Assembly (NCBI GenBank): GCA_947630535.1
Contig: CANRHZ010000002.1
Span: 1 to 64,000 of the forward strand
Direction of reading: 5' to 3'
Source of the DNA: Candidatus Gastranaerophilales bacterium
GTDB taxonomy: Bacteria > Cyanobacteriota > Vampirovibrionia > Gastranaerophilales > Gastranaerophilaceae
Length of the DNA: 64,000 nucleotides
The notes beneath the pieces are model-generated. The model was not told the DNA's origin, did no database searches, and worked only from the letters and a program-made list of their open reading frames with translations. Of this stretch, positions 51,458 through 59,643 are shown piece after piece; position 1 is the first letter of the stretch; every line of letters begins with the position of its first letter. The position numbers and the translations under genes are program-made.

Positions 51458-52750
51458 ATGTATAAAATAAATGCAGACAACTTTGAAATAAATTCAAATA
51501 ATGTTACGGAATGGATTACGGAATTTAAAAATTCAATTCTTCCAAAAAGGCTCGAATTAGCTTCATATTACGACGGAACAAACGAAATTATTAAACAAAA
51601 TGCCGTGGAGGGACGCCCTAATTATTCTATAAATGTCAACATGGCAAAATATATAACAGATGTTGCAACGGGTTATACATTTGGAAAACCCGCATCTTAT
51701 AGCATTTCATCCGATGAGTATAAAAAAATACTGGATGGAATTTTAAACGTAAATAAACTTAATCATACTGATGAACTCGATTATCAGATGGGTGGGGATA
51801 TGTCGGTTTTTGGGATTGCATACCAGCTTGTATATTCAAAACAAGAAAACTCTACAATCCCCGTTAAATATAAAAGACTTGATCCGACAAGAACTTTTGC
51901 CGTTTGTGATAATACTATAGAAGAAAATATATTTTGCATGGTTTATTTTCATGAATATCTGGAAAATAAAAACCTAAAAACGAAAGTATACGTATGGGAT
52001 AAGGATTTTCTTTACATTTTTGGCGGAACTTCCAATCTTGTTATGATTGCCTCTAAAACACCTCATTATATGGGGCAGATTCCCGTTATTCAATCCTTAA
52101 ATAATGATGATGGGTATGGTGACTATGAAATGATAACGAGCCTTTTAGACTCTTTAAATCTTATGGTGTCAAATAATACAGATGACCTTCAATCTGTTTC
52201 AAACGCTATTTTGGCGGTATCAGGCGGTAAATTGGGAGAGGATGAAATCAAACAGATAAATAAATATAAAGTTGCAAATCTCCCCATTGGCGCAAATATG
52301 GAATGGATTATTAAAAATGCTAACGTGGAAGGTACTTTAGGACAGGTAAAGCATCTTTTAAATTTTATTTTTCAAATTTCAATGGTTCCTGATTTATCTG
52401 ATGATGCATTTGCGGGAAACCTTTCAGGAGTTGCAATGCAGTTTAAAATGTGGGGAATTGACCAGTTGTGGACTTCTAAAATAAGAAAATATAAAACATC
52501 CGTTTATAAAAGGCTTAAGATGACCCTAAGGGTTCTTGGGTTAAGTGAAAATAACGCCGAGGATGTTCAGATATCTTTTTATAGAAACCTTCCTGAAAAT
52601 ATGGCACAAGACTACGAAATTGCAAAAAATCTAACAGGTGTGCTTTCGCTAAAAACCATATTAAAGAATTTATCCGTTGTTGATGATGTTGAAGCGGAAT
52701 ATAAAGCAATACAAGAAGAAAAAAATATTTCAGACAATAAATTTGCTTAG
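51458..52750 (+). CDS. Orphan phage portal protein (SPP1 Gp6-like)
   Basis: Portal proteins form the dodecameric DNA gate of tailed-phage capsids. This full-length 430-residue protein has the family pattern: a short N-terminus, PKRLELASYYDGTNEI, SINVNMAKYITDVATGYTFGKP, FGIAYQLVYSK with the KRLDPTRTF wing, IPVIQSLNNDDGYGDYEMITSLLDSLNLMVSNNTDD, and the long crown helix followed by NLSGVAMQFKMWGIDQ. No terminase, scaffold, capsid or tail gene is nearby. It has an exceptionally strong ribosome site (AAGGAGG, 5 nt before ATG) and its own terminator. There are no frameshifts, so it is either a recent remnant or a gene kept for another role. Confidence 0.87.
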   Translation: MYKINADNFEINSNNVTEWITEFKNSILPKRLELASYYDGTNEIIKQNAVEGRPNYSINVNMAKYITDVATGYTFGKPASYSISSDEYKKILDGILNVNKLNHTDELDYQMGGDMSVFGIAYQLVYSKQENSTIPVKYKRLDPTRTFAVCDNTIEENIFCMVYFHEYLENKNLKTKVYVWDKDFLYIFGGTSNLVMIASKTPHYMGQIPVIQSLNNDDGYGDYEMITSLLDSLNLMVSNNTDDLQSVSNAILAVSGGKLGEDEIKQINKYKVANLPIGANMEWIIKNANVEGTLGQVKHLLNFIFQISMVPDLSDDAFAGNLSGVAMQFKMWGIDQLWTSKIRKYKTSVYKRLKMTLRVLGLSENNAEDVQISFYRNLPENMAQDYEIAKNLTGVLSLKTILKNLSVVDDVEAEYKAIQEEKNISDNKFA

Positions 52751-52848: not shown

Positions 52849-53148
52849 ATGAAAAAGATTTTTATTTTATATTTAATATTTTTCTCAAGCTTATCTCAGG
52901 TTTATGCAATTAATTTTGGCATGTATAAGCCCGAGGAAGATTACGGACTTATTGACGGCCTTAAATTTAATTTTTCAAGACAAGATAGGGCGGAAGGCAA
53001 ACAGTTAATTCAACTTAAAACCGAAATGCCGGAAGAAAAAGAAAGAATGGAAAAAGAAAAAGCACAGTATGAAGCGGATAAAGACCGAAAAGCGGATGAT
53101 GAGTATCAGATGTTTAAATTCATGCTTGACGATACAATTGCTTTTTAA
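52849..53148 (+). CDS. Small secreted protein of unknown function, 99 aa
   Basis: A signal peptide (MKKIFILYLIFFSSLSQVYA) precedes a mature part of about 80 residues. It begins INFGMYKPEEDYGLIDGLKFNFSRQD and is then strongly charged and helical (EMPEEKERMEKEKAQYEADKDRKADDEYQMF), ending in a Phe. I know no family. TG-C-TATCAT ends 9 nt before the ATG, giving almost no leader. It lies between the portal gene and the TpsB gene, with its own terminator. A periplasmic chaperone-like or structural role is possible but not supported. Confidence 0.6.
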   Translation: MKKIFILYLIFFSSLSQVYAINFGMYKPEEDYGLIDGLKFNFSRQDRAEGKQLIQLKTEMPEEKERMEKEKAQYEADKDRKADDEYQMFKFMLDDTIAF

Positions 53149-53214: not shown

Positions 53215-55002
53215 CTAGAGTATGTTTGAAGTTACAATAAAGTGTACTCTCAAGTTTGAAGCACCTTCCGGTTTATCCCCAATAGGAACACCGATATATA
53301 CGTTAGCTGATAAGTATCTTGTTAATTTGAGGATAGCGCCGCCGCCTATTGACATTATGTAATCGGGGCCGTCATTTTTAGAGTGCATATTTCCAAACCA
53401 ACCTGCATCATAGAAGCCTGCAAGTCTTATGCTATCGTCAATAAATTTGAGTTTGTCGGGAAGCATCATTCTCAAGAACGGAACAGGGAATCTGATTTCA
53501 GCAGAACCGGTTGCACCGTAGTCTTTAATGAAGTAGCTTTCTTCATAGCCTCTGACTGATGACATACCGCCAAAGCTCATTCTTTCTGAAGGAAGTAAAG
53601 CTCTGCTAGCCCATTGACCTCTTGCTTGTAATACCGCAGTCGATCTTAAAGGTAAAACTTGAATTCTTGCTAAGCTACCGATAACTTTAACACCTTTGTT
53701 GGATGGAATACTGTGTCTTGGAGAACCTGTTAAACCAAAATCAAGGTAATCTGTGGCACCAAACCAATCCATGCCTACTGATGTTCCGACCGTACCAAAC
53801 CATTTGCCGTAGAAGTCGTCTTTAATGTTTGTAAAATTAATTTTTAAATTACGGCTTCTGTATTTGTATAAATCAAAGTCCATTAAAGTGGTTTTTGTAT
53901 TTCTTATATCAAGGCCGATATCACCGTATAATTTATAGTTGTCGGTTTTTATGAACCTTTTTGATAACGTAAAGAATAAGTTATGGGATTTTGATTCAAT
54001 ATCCAATGGTTCAAGAGCCCCTGCAACGCTTGCACCCGAATAAGAGTAGCCGACATTCAATTTTGTTTCTTTAGTTTTGGTTAAAGGCACACTGTACATA
54101 ACACCTTGACCTATTGAATGTCTTGCAAGAGTTGTTGTGGAATATAACTGATCGCCAAATCCGGTTAAGTTATATAAGCCTGCAAAGAAGATTGCCCTGT
54201 GCAGACCGGTTGTTGATGTACCCATATCGTCCCATCTGAAATCGAAGTCTAGCGGAAATCTGTCTTTTACGGTTAATTCTAAGTCTGTAAGCTCTGCGGA
54301 TTCTTCATTGTCCTCCAATGAAATTGCACCTGTCATATATCCGGATGCGTTAATTTCCTGCAAAGATTCTCTAATGTCGTTAACATTTAAAAGAGAACCG
54401 GATTCAATGTATTTATCTTTTAAATATTGGTTATTCAAATAAGAGGTTCTGTTCCATTTGTTTCCGCCTATTGAAATGTTGCCGTATTTACCTTCCATTA
54501 TGTTAATTGTGATGTTACCATCCAATACTTTTTGGGGGGCAAGGTAAGCAACCGATGAAATGTAACCATGCTTTTGGTAATGTTCGGTTACCATATTGGT
54601 TATTCCGACCAAGTCTGCAACCGTAACCGTTGTTCCGATTTTATCGCAAACAAGGTTCATTAATTCTTCTTCGGTAAATGCCGTGTAGCCTTTAAATGTG
54701 ATTGAATTTAAAACAAAACTTGCTTCTTTGTTTGGCAGCTGATCAACCTGAGTTTGGAGGTCTTTGTTCATGGTTATGTCGCCGCCTTCTTTGTGTTTAT
54801 CTCTGCGTTCTTCGCTTGCTTTAAATTCATATTCTTTAAAGTGCATTAAATTGTATGTATCAATAACACCTGAGTCAAAGTTACCGATATTTGAACCAAA
54901 ATTAGTATTTGTTTCAGCTGAAACAGGCTGCCCCATTACCATAATGGCAATAGCAAGAGTTGCTAAGGGCATGACTTTTTTAAAAATATCTTTGCTTTTC
55001 AC
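53215..55002 (-). CDS. TpsB outer-membrane transporter of a two-partner secretion system (FhaC/ShlB-like)
   Basis: This outer-membrane barrel secretes the TpsA protein encoded divergently. After a signal peptide (ending VMGQPVSA) come an N-terminal segment GNFDSGVIDTYNLMHFKEYEFKASEERRDKHK, a POTRA region starting SFVLNSITFKGYTAFTEEELMNL, and a 16-strand-type barrel. The barrel includes the family motif SSVRGYEESYFIKDYGATGSAEIRFPVP (about residue 484). The final strand reads LRVHFIVTSNIL, so the usual C-terminal aromatic residue is replaced by Leu. The start is GTG, with AAGGA upstream. In FhaC the N-terminal helix plugs the pore; here that region is duplicated as the neighbouring small gene. 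Confidence 0.9.
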   Translation of the reverse strand: MKSKDIFKKVMPLATLAIAIMVMGQPVSAETNTNFGSNIGNFDSGVIDTYNLMHFKEYEFKASEERRDKHKEGGDITMNKDLQTQVDQLPNKEASFVLNSITFKGYTAFTEEELMNLVCDKIGTTVTVADLVGITNMVTEHYQKHGYISSVAYLAPQKVLDGNITINIMEGKYGNISIGGNKWNRTSYLNNQYLKDKYIESGSLLNVNDIRESLQEINASGYMTGAISLEDNEESAELTDLELTVKDRFPLDFDFRWDDMGTSTTGLHRAIFFAGLYNLTGFGDQLYSTTTLARHSIGQGVMYSVPLTKTKETKLNVGYSYSGASVAGALEPLDIESKSHNLFFTLSKRFIKTDNYKLYGDIGLDIRNTKTTLMDFDLYKYRSRNLKINFTNIKDDFYGKWFGTVGTSVGMDWFGATDYLDFGLTGSPRHSIPSNKGVKVIGSLARIQVLPLRSTAVLQARGQWASRALLPSERMSFGGMSSVRGYEESYFIKDYGATGSAEIRFPVPFLRMMLPDKLKFIDDSIRLAGFYDAGWFGNMHSKNDGPDYIMSIGGGAILKLTRYLSANVYIGVPIGDKPEGASNLRVHFIVTSNIL

Positions 55003-55040
55003 TTTTTATAATTCCTTATGATTGTTTTTCTTAAATTTTT

Positions 55041-55337
55041 CTATTTGTCAGTTGTTTTGTTATTAAACTGTCTGTCAAATTCCTTTTGCAGTTTTTCGGG
55101 TAATTTTATTTGCCCGTTATGTTTATGTTTTTTCGGATTTTCTTCACTCGGCTTATAGTCATACTGTTTAAATTGAATAAGGTTTGAAGTGTCTATAATG
55201 CCGGAATCGAAGTTTCCGAACGGAGAACCCATTGAGGTTCCCGTGTTAGCTATGGCTTTATCTTGTTGTAATAAAGAAATTATACCGTATAAAACTATAG
55301 CTGTCATAATTTTTTTACAAGGTGCGGAAATTTTCAC
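55041..55337 (-). CDS. Small secreted paralogue of the TpsB N-terminal segment, 98 aa
   Basis: This short protein has a signal peptide-like start (MKISAPCKKIMTAIVLYGIISLLQQDKAIA). Its next 50 residues closely repeat the N-terminus of the adjacent TpsB. GNFDSGIIDTSNLIQFKQYDYKPSEE with KHKHNGQI here corresponds to GNFDSGVIDTYNLMHFKEYEFKASEE with KHKEGGDI there. It then ends with a charged helix and lacks POTRA and barrel. GTG 55337 follows GAAGGA by 6 nt, so it is a translated gene and not a pseudogene by appearance. It lies 38 nt upstream of the TpsB start, probably in one operon. A free plug or regulator of the pore is my inference. Confidence 0.75.
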   Translation of the reverse strand: MKISAPCKKIMTAIVLYGIISLLQQDKAIANTGTSMGSPFGNFDSGIIDTSNLIQFKQYDYKPSEENPKKHKHNGQIKLPEKLQKEFDRQFNNKTTDK

Positions 55338-55788
55338 TCGTATTCCTTCTTGTGCTTGAAGTTCGGATGAAATAATACCATTTCTTTATTAATATACACT
55401 TACAAATATAATATATGGCAATATATATTTATTCAATAAGTTAAATAAATGATATTTATTAGACTACAAAATAATATGCGGTAAACATTTTTTTGCAACC
55501 TGTACCAAAATGAAAAAACTTCTAAATTTTAAAATTTGCTACTTGCAAAATAACTTTTGTGTTATAATAATCGGGCATTTATAATTATATCTCCGAAATC
55601 TTAACAATTTTTTACAAAAACTGTCAAAAAACTTTATTTTAAGATTGAATAATTACAAATGTAATGATATGTAAATTTATTAAAATTTTTAGAGCAATTT
55701 ATTAAATTTTCATGTTTTTTGTACGATAGAAACCTATAGTTGGTTTGTAATTTTTGTTATTTTCATAAATCTTTAGAAAGGACTGATA
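55338..55788. promoter_or_regulatory. Divergent promoter region and long tpsA leader
   Basis: This gap separates the divergent secretion genes and is very AT-rich. An extended -10 (TG-T-TATAAT, 55560-55568) points towards tpsA and would give a leader of about 215 nt. Within it lies the palindrome TTACAAATGTAA at 55653-55664. AGAAAGGA precedes ATG 55789. No coding frame is credible. Confidence 0.5.
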
Positions 55789-58700
55789 ATGAAAAATTTT
55801 TCCAGAAAAGAGACGGCAACAAAAAAGGGAATAGCTTCGTTTTTAGCACTTTTGAGTTTTACGGCATATATGCCGGTAAGCAGCCTTCCTGCATTTGCGC
55901 AGATTGCTGCTGATACACTTCCCAGTTTAAGGGATTCTGTTAATGGTAATGTTACAACAGGCGATAAAAGATTAGATGCACATGTAAAGGGCGGTACGGG
56001 TACCGTAGCTCAATTTGATTGGAATACATTTGACGTAGGTAAAGACAGTACGGTAAACTTTGAATTTTCAGCTAATAGCCAAACGGCATTAAACAGGGTG
56101 TTGGGCGGTAAAATGTCTGAAATATACGGACAGTTAACATCCAGCTCGGCTAATAACTGCCCTTCTTGCGTAAATACAAGTAAAGTTATTTTAATTAACC
56201 CCGCAGGTGTGTTGATGGGCGCAGGTTCAAAAGTTAACCTTAACTCATTTACCGCATCAACATACGACATTCAAGGTATAAAAGACCTTAAAACATTAAC
56301 TGAAGCTGAACGTAAAGAATACGCTGGTCAAGGCGGTGCAACAGGCGGTCTTTTCAATTTGGCAGGTTATAACAAAACAATTAAATTCGTTGCTAACGAC
56401 AATATGGTTGATGGCAACGGTAAGTTAGTTGCAGACGGTCAAGGAACAAGACTTGCTTCTATCGTGGCAGACGGTGCAGATATTCAGGCAAATAAAACCA
56501 TTGCATTTGTCGGGAATAAAATTGACGTTAAGAATTCAAAATTAACCACAACTTATGAATCCACACCGAATGCCGTTAACGGTACTCAAACAAGATCAAA
56601 TATCAAACTCGTTACGGGCGACGGTGTTAATTTCTACTATACATCAGCAGGTAACGTTAACAATAAAGTAACCGTTGATAGTGCAAGCAAAAAGCATGCC
56701 GATCAACAGTACGGAATTAATATTGAAAAATCAACATTAAGATCAGGTAACATTCTTGCTTACAACGGTGTTGACGGCACTAATAGCTCTGTTAAAATTA
56801 AAGATTCAACCTTGTATTCTAAAAAATTACTTGGTTCTGAATATACCGATAGCGCTACCGGCAAAAAATATCAACCCACAGAAACAGGTACGGACGGCAA
56901 CCTCACAATTACAAGCAAAGGAACGGTTGATATTGAAGATTCAAACATTCAAACAACAAATGATGCAAAAAACGGTGAAAATATTACAACCGATATCGGA
57001 TACGGTAACTTAACCATCACGGGCAAAAGAGATGTTAATATTAAAAACACTCAATTAAGAACCGCAGATTCTAAATTAAACAAAGCAGGCAAGATTGATG
57101 CAGGTAATATTACAATCACATCTGAGGAAGGCGACATTAACCTTGTACAGGATGCGCCTACTAATAGCGATTTATACAAAAACACCGCTGTTGCCGCAGC
57201 AGGTGATTTAACCTTAAATGCTAAAAAAGGTTCGGTAAGTGCAAAAGGATATAACAAACTTCAAGCTCAAGGACACGGAACCGAACACAATGCAAGTAGC
57301 TACACAGATCGTTCAATCAATGTTAACGCTAAAAATGCTAAATTCGAAGATACTTTATTAAGTGCTAAAAATTTAACGGTTGATGCAGAACAAAACATTG
57401 ATATTAAAGGAACGAATGTTCTTGCGGATAATACAAAACTATACGGTCAAAATACCACAATTGACAATTCGCTTATGCAATATACAGACTTAAGTTTTGT
57501 TAACCCTGCAAACTCTGCAAAGAAAAACAATGTTACCGTTAAAAATGGTTCAACATTCAACGACACTGATTCAGACGGCTTAAAATTATCCACAAACGGT
57601 AATTTAACGATTGATAATTCCCGCTTAAAGAAACAAGCATACGGAGATACAACTCAGACAAATCAAAAATCAGTCGAACTTGAATCTACAGACGGCAACG
57701 TTACACTTCAAAATAGCGCAAGAGTATTTACCTCAAACGGCAAGTTTGATGTTAAAGCAAATAAAGGTTCAATAACCATTGATGACAATTCTGTTGTATA
57801 TGCAACAAACGGTGATACAAACTTGTCAGCAAAAGGCGATATTAATGTTACAAATAAATCTGTTGCTTGGTCGAAAAACGGTAATTTAAATATTAAATCA
57901 GCAGAAGGCAAAGTTACCGCTCACGATTCAAAATTGGCTTCAGAAGGCGGAAACACAACAATTGAACAGGCTCAATCAATGAATCTTGATAAAGATTTCA
58001 AAGATTCACTTATCGGTGCAACAGGTCATTTAACATTAAAATCAAACGGCGATATCACAGGTACGACATATCAACAGGGTACGGGATACATAAACGACGA
58101 TACCGACCTGTTATCATTAAATAATGTTAAAACCGGCGCAAATGTTCGTATGGTATACGGTGATGATGCAACTTTTGATGCCGGCAATGACATCAATATA
58201 ACAGACTTACAATCAGCTAAGAATGTTAATTTCAAAGCCGGAAATGATGTTAAATTAAATAGCACAACTGATATGAACCTTACCAACGTAAAAACACAAT
58301 CAGGAAATAATACCAATGTTGCTGCAGCCGGCAGACTTACTACAGACGGGTTTGAAATTCTTGGCGGCAAAAAGACAACCCTTTCCGGTGACTCTGTTGT
58401 TACAAAAGCTGATTCAGTAATTAAAACAAACCAAAACAAATTGGCCGTTAATGCAAAAGGCGCTATTGATATTGATGTAACCGGTGTTACAAACGCTGCA
58501 AACGGTATTGATATTAATGCTGATGTTAATACATCAAAAGGTTCTGATCCTCTCAGCGGCAGAACAGTTAAAGTTGAAGCTAAAGACGGAACTTTGGCAG
58601 TTTCAAAAATTAAAGCCGATACTTTAGATATTACGGCTGACAAAGTTCTTAAAGGTGATACAACCATAACAGCTGCAAACGACAATGTTTCAGGCCTTGT

Positions 58701-59643
58701 TGCTGACAATGTCAGCCTTGATTCTAAAGGTTATATCGAAGTTAAAACCGAAGGCGGATTTAACCTTGACAAATCAACAAAATATGGCGACAGTGACAGA
58801 GTAGGATACAATAGCACTCATAACGAAACCGTTAATGATACGGTTACAAGAAAATATGATGAAAACACGGTTGTAGATACTAAAGTTGAAGAAGGAAAAG
58901 ACTTAGTTTCCTCAAAAGAAGTTCAAACGGATGAAGTAATCGGGAGACAAGAAACTTCAAGGAGAGAATTAAGCTCCACAACTTCTGAACCTGTTAGAGA
59001 AGACAACGTAACTTCAGAGGACGGCAGAAGGGGTTACACCGAAACAACAACCACAACAACCGAATATGAAGTAACCGAAGATGTTACATACAAGACACAG
59101 TACCAAGATACATATCAAAATACAAAAACAACAACTACAACAACAAAAACAACCCATAAAGAAGATTTCCAAAAAGATACAAAAGGAAATCAACATGATG
59201 TTGTTATTGATGAAGATCAAGATTTCATCCTTGTATACGGCAAAACAAAATCTGAAACAGGTACAAGAGAAGTAAGCTCAGACATAAAAACAGACACAGT
59301 TAAAGAAAATGTTGGTCCTCAATACACTATAACAGACAGTACAAAAACAGGCTCCTATACAAAATCAGAAACTCGCACAGAAACCAAAACGACAACAAAC
59401 AAAACATTCTGCGAATATGAACAACCTATAGAACCTGATATGGGCGATCTTCCCGAACTTGGCGGATATGATGTTGCAAGCACGGTTAAGAACCCCCGCC
59501 ACGCAGAAGGAATTTCGAACTTGGCACCTATTCAAAATGATTTGGCTGACACTTCATCAACAGTAGTCGCTGCAGCTGCAAGACTTCAACTTGATGAAGG
59601 GGATGATGAGTCTGAAGAAGATAACCAAGATATCGAAGAATAA
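55789..59643 (+). CDS. TpsA exoprotein, filamentous-haemagglutinin-like
   Basis: This 1284-residue exoprotein is secreted through the TpsB pore and probably forms a surface beta-helix for adhesion. A long signal region (MKNFSRKETATKKG...LPAFA) precedes the TPS domain (residues ~40-180). That domain includes VAQFDWNTFDVGKDSTVNFEF, TALNRVLGG and the key motif ILINPAGVLMGAGSKVNLNSFTAST, where NPAGV stands for NPNGI. Then come about 800 residues of repeated beta-helix rungs (GNLTI, VNIKNT, GDINVT). A Thr/Glu-rich segment around residues 1080-1150 follows, with an acidic tail (DDESEEDNQDIEE). A CPSC pair sits in the TPS domain. No toxin, RGD or anchor domain is seen, so adhesion is preferred over contact-dependent inhibition. 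Confidence 0.9.
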   Translation: MKNFSRKETATKKGIASFLALLSFTAYMPVSSLPAFAQIAADTLPSLRDSVNGNVTTGDKRLDAHVKGGTGTVAQFDWNTFDVGKDSTVNFEFSANSQTALNRVLGGKMSEIYGQLTSSSANNCPSCVNTSKVILINPAGVLMGAGSKVNLNSFTASTYDIQGIKDLKTLTEAERKEYAGQGGATGGLFNLAGYNKTIKFVANDNMVDGNGKLVADGQGTRLASIVADGADIQANKTIAFVGNKIDVKNSKLTTTYESTPNAVNGTQTRSNIKLVTGDGVNFYYTSAGNVNNKVTVDSASKKHADQQYGINIEKSTLRSGNILAYNGVDGTNSSVKIKDSTLYSKKLLGSEYTDSATGKKYQPTETGTDGNLTITSKGTVDIEDSNIQTTNDAKNGENITTDIGYGNLTITGKRDVNIKNTQLRTADSKLNKAGKIDAGNITITSEEGDINLVQDAPTNSDLYKNTAVAAAGDLTLNAKKGSVSAKGYNKLQAQGHGTEHNASSYTDRSINVNAKNAKFEDTLLSAKNLTVDAEQNIDIKGTNVLADNTKLYGQNTTIDNSLMQYTDLSFVNPANSAKKNNVTVKNGSTFNDTDSDGLKLSTNGNLTIDNSRLKKQAYGDTTQTNQKSVELESTDGNVTLQNSARVFTSNGKFDVKANKGSITIDDNSVVYATNGDTNLSAKGDINVTNKSVAWSKNGNLNIKSAEGKVTAHDSKLASEGGNTTIEQAQSMNLDKDFKDSLIGATGHLTLKSNGDITGTTYQQGTGYINDDTDLLSLNNVKTGANVRMVYGDDATFDAGNDINITDLQSAKNVNFKAGNDVKLNSTTDMNLTNVKTQSGNNTNVAAAGRLTTDGFEILGGKKTTLSGDSVVTKADSVIKTNQNKLAVNAKGAIDIDVTGVTNAANGIDINADVNTSKGSDPLSGRTVKVEAKDGTLAVSKIKADTLDITADKVLKGDTTITAANDNVSGLVADNVSLDSKGYIEVKTEGGFNLDKSTKYGDSDRVGYNSTHNETVNDTVTRKYDENTVVDTKVEEGKDLVSSKEVQTDEVIGRQETSRRELSSTTSEPVREDNVTSEDGRRGYTETTTTTTEYEVTEDVTYKTQYQDTYQNTKTTTTTTKTTHKEDFQKDTKGNQHDVVIDEDQDFILVYGKTKSETGTREVSSDIKTDTVKENVGPQYTITDSTKTGSYTKSETRTETKTTTNKTFCEYEQPIEPDMGDLPELGGYDVASTVKNPRHAEGISNLAPIQNDLADTSSTVVAAAARLQLDEGDDESEEDNQDIEE

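Follow-up and report, generated by a model that had tools for sequence, protein, structure and literature searches.

The closest described systems are the transporters FhaC and CdiB and the bcpAIOB locus of Burkholderia. In FhaC, the N-terminal helix H1 plugs the pore and the linker competes with the substrate for POTRA2 (PMC4490367). In CdiB, H1 influences the level of the transporter, and deletion of H1 and the linker still permits secretion (PMC7644211). On what the TpsB N-terminal helix and linker do, published deletions give different answers for FhaC and CdiB (PMC7644211). BcpO is a small exported protein which is encoded 5' of bcpB and is needed for full activity (PMC3415462). Among the open-licence papers listed by literature searches, none describes two-partner secretion (TPS) in the bacterial group considered here or stand-alone POTRA or TpsB pieces. 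The locus described below, from a gut-associated Gastranaerophilales bacterium, contains a small gene which, judged by alignment, is a 5'-partial paralogue of tpsB and for which a putative role is proposed.

The two-partner secretion locus

The window is the whole stretch of DNA that was analysed (64,000 nucleotides). The following features of the TPS locus were recorded in it:

53215..55002, minus strand: tpsB, 595 aa, ShlB/FhaC-type transporter with POTRA_2 at residues 96-171 (Pfam)
54790..54885, minus strand: homologous N-terminal motif inside tpsB, residues 40-71 (BLASTP alignment)
55003..55040, minus strand: 38-bp spacer separating tpsB from the small gene; the Shine-Dalgarno of tpsB, AAGGA, is at 55013-55017 (inspection)
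55041..55337, minus strand: gene for the small exported protein (98 aa), paralogous to the TpsB N-terminus and free-standing (genome search, BLASTP)
55397..55458, minus strand: putative tpsB promoter block conserved in the genus, 62 bp, now 5' of the small gene (genus comparison)
55789..59643, plus strand: tpsA, 1284 aa, divergent to tpsB (Pfam)

Pfam matches to the TPS domain (PF05860, 3.6e-14), the ShlB barrel (PF03865, 2.1e-25) and POTRA_2 (PF08479, 1.8e-18) mark this as a two-partner locus, and TpsA is the only TPS-domain protein of the genome. TpsB carries the Omp85 signatures VRGY and FYDAG; its closest solved relatives are CdiBs. In six relatives from the genus, the spacer between tpsA and tpsB is 336 to 416 bp long and has the conserved block 5' of tpsB. 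The 62-bp block is nearly invariant across the genus, whereas the flanking spacer diverges; it is likely a promoter or regulator site. There is one copy of it in this genome. As this single block lies 5' of the small gene, which is just 38 bp away from tpsB, the small gene is placed first in the tpsB unit. From this arrangement we infer that the small protein and TpsB are made together.

The position of the small gene at the head of the unit, with tpsB 38 bp 3' of it, would also suit a leader cistron, the protein of which is irrelevant; translation of an upstream reading frame, a longer leader or an internal promoter would then set tpsB expression. A sigma-70-like site (11/12 match; 55307-55279, minus strand) lies within the small gene and could also serve tpsB. 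However, the region has nine promoter-like sites against 6.2 expected from shuffles (sd 2.6), which is near expectation, and a leader requires neither amino-acid constraint nor retention of a motif, both of which are described below. This explanation is considered improbable.

Other genes are found beside the locus. A gene for an SPP1-type phage portal protein (PF05133, E 4e-79) is present at 51458-52750 of the window (plus strand); other phage genes are absent around it, and it looks like a domesticated phage portal. All six same-genus relatives also have a phage portal gene near the TPS locus, beside a gene for a 99-aa exported protein. The latter (NFGMYKPEEDYGLIDGLKFNF) is encoded here at 52849-53148 of the window (plus strand). 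It is kept in the genus and in the neighbouring genus and belongs to no Pfam family.

The small gene and its product

The signals and segments of the small gene are as follows:

55344..55351, minus strand: Shine-Dalgarno AAGAAGGA, 6 nt 5' of the GTG (inspection)
55248..55337, minus strand: signal peptide, residues 1-30, likely cleaved after AIA (read from the sequence)
55122..55217, minus strand: H1-like TpsB N-terminal motif GNFDSGIIDTSNLIQFKQYDYKPSEENPKKHK, residues 41-72 (alignment to conserved positions)

The gene starts with GTG, has no in-frame stops and ends with TAG. An earlier note on this DNA had described a 98-residue exported protein that repeats GNFDSGxIDTxNLxxFKxYxxKxSEE and KHK of the adjacent TpsB, is encoded directly upstream of it, has its own ribosome site and stops before POTRA. 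The reading frame and BLASTP agree with this description: 38 bp lie between the two genes, and AAGAAGGA stands 6 nt from the GTG. Similarity to TpsB covers the signal peptide (TpsB relatives carry theirs at the equivalent position), the motif, KHK and the start of the linker. It ends at about residue 89, before POTRA1, which begins at TpsB residue 96.

Against the adjacent TpsB, 37 of 82 residues are identical (45%; BLASTP E 1e-19), an E-value which rules out chance similarity. A search of the whole genome with the small protein matches only the protein itself and the N-terminus of TpsB (E 6e-18, residues 8-93). It is also recognised as an N-terminal segment homologous to the TpsBs of the lineage (profile A4, E 1.2e-25, a value which includes a self-match because the profile contains the small protein's own sequence). 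The frame of the small gene differs from that of tpsB, so simple read-through into tpsB is impossible; together with the TAG stop, this rules out a fusion.

Several features of a transporter or a lipoprotein are absent. The small protein has no match to any Pfam family at E up to 1, POTRA domains included, and the 98 residues hold neither a 16-strand barrel nor the (V/I)RG(Y/F) or (F/G)xDxG motifs. By inspection there is no lipobox; the sole Cys (residue 7) stands before the hydrophobic core.

The earlier note had called the protein a copy of the TpsB N-terminus. The relationship is genuine, but the copy is a diverged paralogue and not an exact one. Compared over its mature part, it shares 52% of residues with its own TpsB, 57% with the TpsB of one relative (L009) and 50 to 53% with the remaining TpsBs of the genus. 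It is about as distant from these as the neighbouring genus is.

Distribution in relatives

The genus sample comprises nine genomes including the one described here, and TpsB is present in this genome and in six relatives. The small gene is absent from all six; in the other two genomes, G002 (82% complete) and G003 (99% complete), both TpsB and the small gene are missing. It was not found in any other genome of the family that was searched (383), nor in the order and phylum samples. In the family, order and phylum samples, every strong match is either the N-terminus of a TpsB of about 600 aa or a TpsB truncated where its contig stops. Some short frames matched by the profile were rejected as homologues of the small gene: L062, L064 and L068 are TpsBs that run off the end of a contig, in L065 the frame of a TpsB is broken, and the matches to L066 and L067 look like chance. 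A scan of viral contigs for related DNA found nothing. The small gene is known from one genome among those searched.

Absence from related genomes had been put forward in the earlier note as a sign of a transient partial duplication. The relatives do lack the gene. However, the gene is unlike recent debris: its branch point is close to the base of the genus, a neutral model of its branch is rejected, and the motif which is conserved in the family is kept.

Age, constraint and origin

Placement of the small gene by codon likelihood is best at the root of the genus (lnL -1174.3); the stem of this genome and L009 (-1179.9) and the tip of its own TpsB (-1184.9) fit less well. When duplications were simulated on the own tip, the gap in lnL was reached in none of 40 runs; on the stem with L009 it was reached in one of 24. 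By this placement the small gene looks old, branching near the base of the genus and not as a recent duplicate of its own tpsB.

In the codon model, omega on the small-gene branch is about 0.02, similar to TpsB; synonymous sites are saturated. On the mature part, a model with a neutral branch can be rejected (2dlnL 8.9 to 19 across placements). When the regions are tested one by one, the rejection is weak (2dlnL 2.8 to 5.0), and the signal peptide is indistinguishable from neutral. When neutral drift was simulated to an identity of 65% or less with the ancestor, the frame stayed free of stops in 4 to 13% of runs, with indels ignored; over a range of assumed divergences the figure is 4 to 20%. 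The intact open frame and the constraint at the protein level bear out the view that the gene shows no decay.

Constraint can also be followed by position, where a position counts as conserved if 95% or more of 30 TpsBs share it and the split between motif and linker was chosen after seeing the alignment. In the motif, ten of twelve positions are identical and two are conservatively changed (V->I, E->D); of the linker positions on the POTRA side, two of ten are retained. Two linker substitutions (M->L, K->E) fall before the end of the homology, at positions conserved in 97% of TpsBs. Retention of the motif with loss of the linker fits selection on a motif which has no link to POTRA. Over all columns that are invariant in the genus, retention in the small protein is independent of family-wide conservation (Fisher p 0.92); the contrast is seen only with motif and linker taken apart.

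The constraint is averaged along the branch, so these results also fit a divergent full-length tpsB which was truncated recently; the constraint could date from the time when the copy was still full-length. The main rival explanation is of this kind. A homologous tpsB would have arrived or been duplicated alongside a second, divergent tpsB that was native or came from an unsampled relative; the older gene would then have lost its body, leaving a functionless relic of 98 codons which is still intact because the loss is recent. This would suit a gene which branches at the base of the genus yet is missing from all other members of it. Against it, the altered linker positions lie upstream of the end of the homology, and the gene has its own stop, 38 bp ahead of a good tpsB leader. 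Such a relic is rather unlikely; if the small gene is one, it is an ordinary partial duplication.

A mosaic history of tpsB would also point towards a relic. The tpsB N-terminus and 35-nt leader resemble those of L009 (79%, versus 66-69% for the rest), whereas the tpsB body is about equally distant from all members of the genus (84 to 87%), the relationships within which are poorly resolved. A mosaic or replacement origin is thus possible. The 38-bp spacer resembles the 5' leader of the L009 tpsB (shuffle p 0.0005). The order of small gene and tpsB would follow in one step from the duplication in tandem of about 335 bp. However, the leaders of the two genes do not resemble each other significantly, and a simple one-step duplication that includes the leader is unsupported.

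Possible function

The explanation we favour, tentatively, is that a partial tpsB paralogue has been kept as a periplasmic accessory which acts on TpsB or its partner. The part of tpsB nearest the promoter, from the signal peptide through the H1-like segment into the first linker residues, is present twice in tandem, with the upstream copy standing alone. The occurrence of the small gene in one genome only, among those searched, counts against this explanation. The small protein would be secreted into the periplasm and produced alongside TpsB. There, it would be retained for its TpsB-like motif, which may bind the targets of the TpsB N-terminus, be they TpsB's own pore, the POTRA face or a common partner. 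Acting in trans, it would compete with or stabilise the N-terminal segment of TpsB, and could thereby tune the occupancy or assembly of the transporter. A more specific version, in which the TPS system has a third, in-trans partner and a free periplasmic copy of the gating segment competes to set the number of open or stable TpsB pores, is regarded as a long shot.

A free peptide might instead enter the TpsB barrel from the periplasm and block it or set its opening. The small protein matches H1 in position, retains conserved residues of the motif and has a signal peptide; H1 of FhaC enters the pore and, in crystals, can be exchanged between molecules (PMC4490367). However, there are two prolines (YKPSEENPKKHK) within the H1-like stretch, at positions of the putative helix where the sampled TpsBs have none. 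AlphaFold2 gives no confident helix (small protein pLDDT 60, none in the motif); its model of TpsB, from a 9-row alignment, was discarded (pLDDT 30). The 15-residue core lacks an amphipathic helix moment, both in the small protein and in TpsBs. CdiB secretes without H1 and linker (PMC7644211), and an untethered peptide would require a high concentration. Such a plug is considered improbable, and the small protein is more likely an accessory. If the peptide does act on TpsB, it would be a natural in-trans reagent for the role of the TpsB N-terminal helix and linker.

Barrel-less proteins in the family

Free-standing frames of 153-202 aa with a signal peptide, a related D-x-G motif, one ShlB-type POTRA domain (POTRA_2) and no barrel are found in 42 genomes of the family, all in sister genera: 40 from genus g41 and one each from two other genera. 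Inspection covered the sequences from 10 to 12 of these genomes. Examples are L060:2806-3276 (minus strand), L063:2991-3470 (plus strand) and L072-L081; the genes often lie close to tig or lepA. Their match to the motif is weak (profile E 0.0004 to 0.005). A separate exported protein of about 106 aa (L061:2574-2909, minus strand) has the TpsB-motif-like VFDAGAINARNMQMLRDQEFR and no POTRA domain (profile E 0.006); this match is possibly due to chance.

The barrel-less proteins resemble the small protein in having a signal peptide and a related D-x-G motif and in being free-standing with no barrel. They differ in that they have POTRA_2, are not beside tpsB and are conserved across a genus. They suggest a precedent for free-standing TpsB pieces and their repeated use in these bacteria, and as a conserved family they may merit more interest than the small gene.

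Comparison with known systems

The adjacent TpsB is a clear homologue of ShlB, FhaC and CdiB. H1 and the linker of FhaC and CdiB lie after the signal peptide and before POTRA1 in the precursor, as does the segment found in the small protein. Here, in contrast, the segment is also encoded alone, with neither POTRA domains nor a barrel. The likeness to H1 is one of position only: alignments with CdiB start after the segment, and the helix and its insertion into a pore are putative in this system.

BcpO is like the small protein in being exported and encoded directly 5' of the TpsB gene, and its deletion impairs activity. In B. thailandensis, BcpO is predicted to be a lipoprotein and is unlike characterised proteins, whereas the small protein has no lipobox and is related to TpsB; BcpO is present in most Burkholderia-type loci and the small protein in one genome. 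By analogy, BcpO may be taken as a positional precedent for the small protein.
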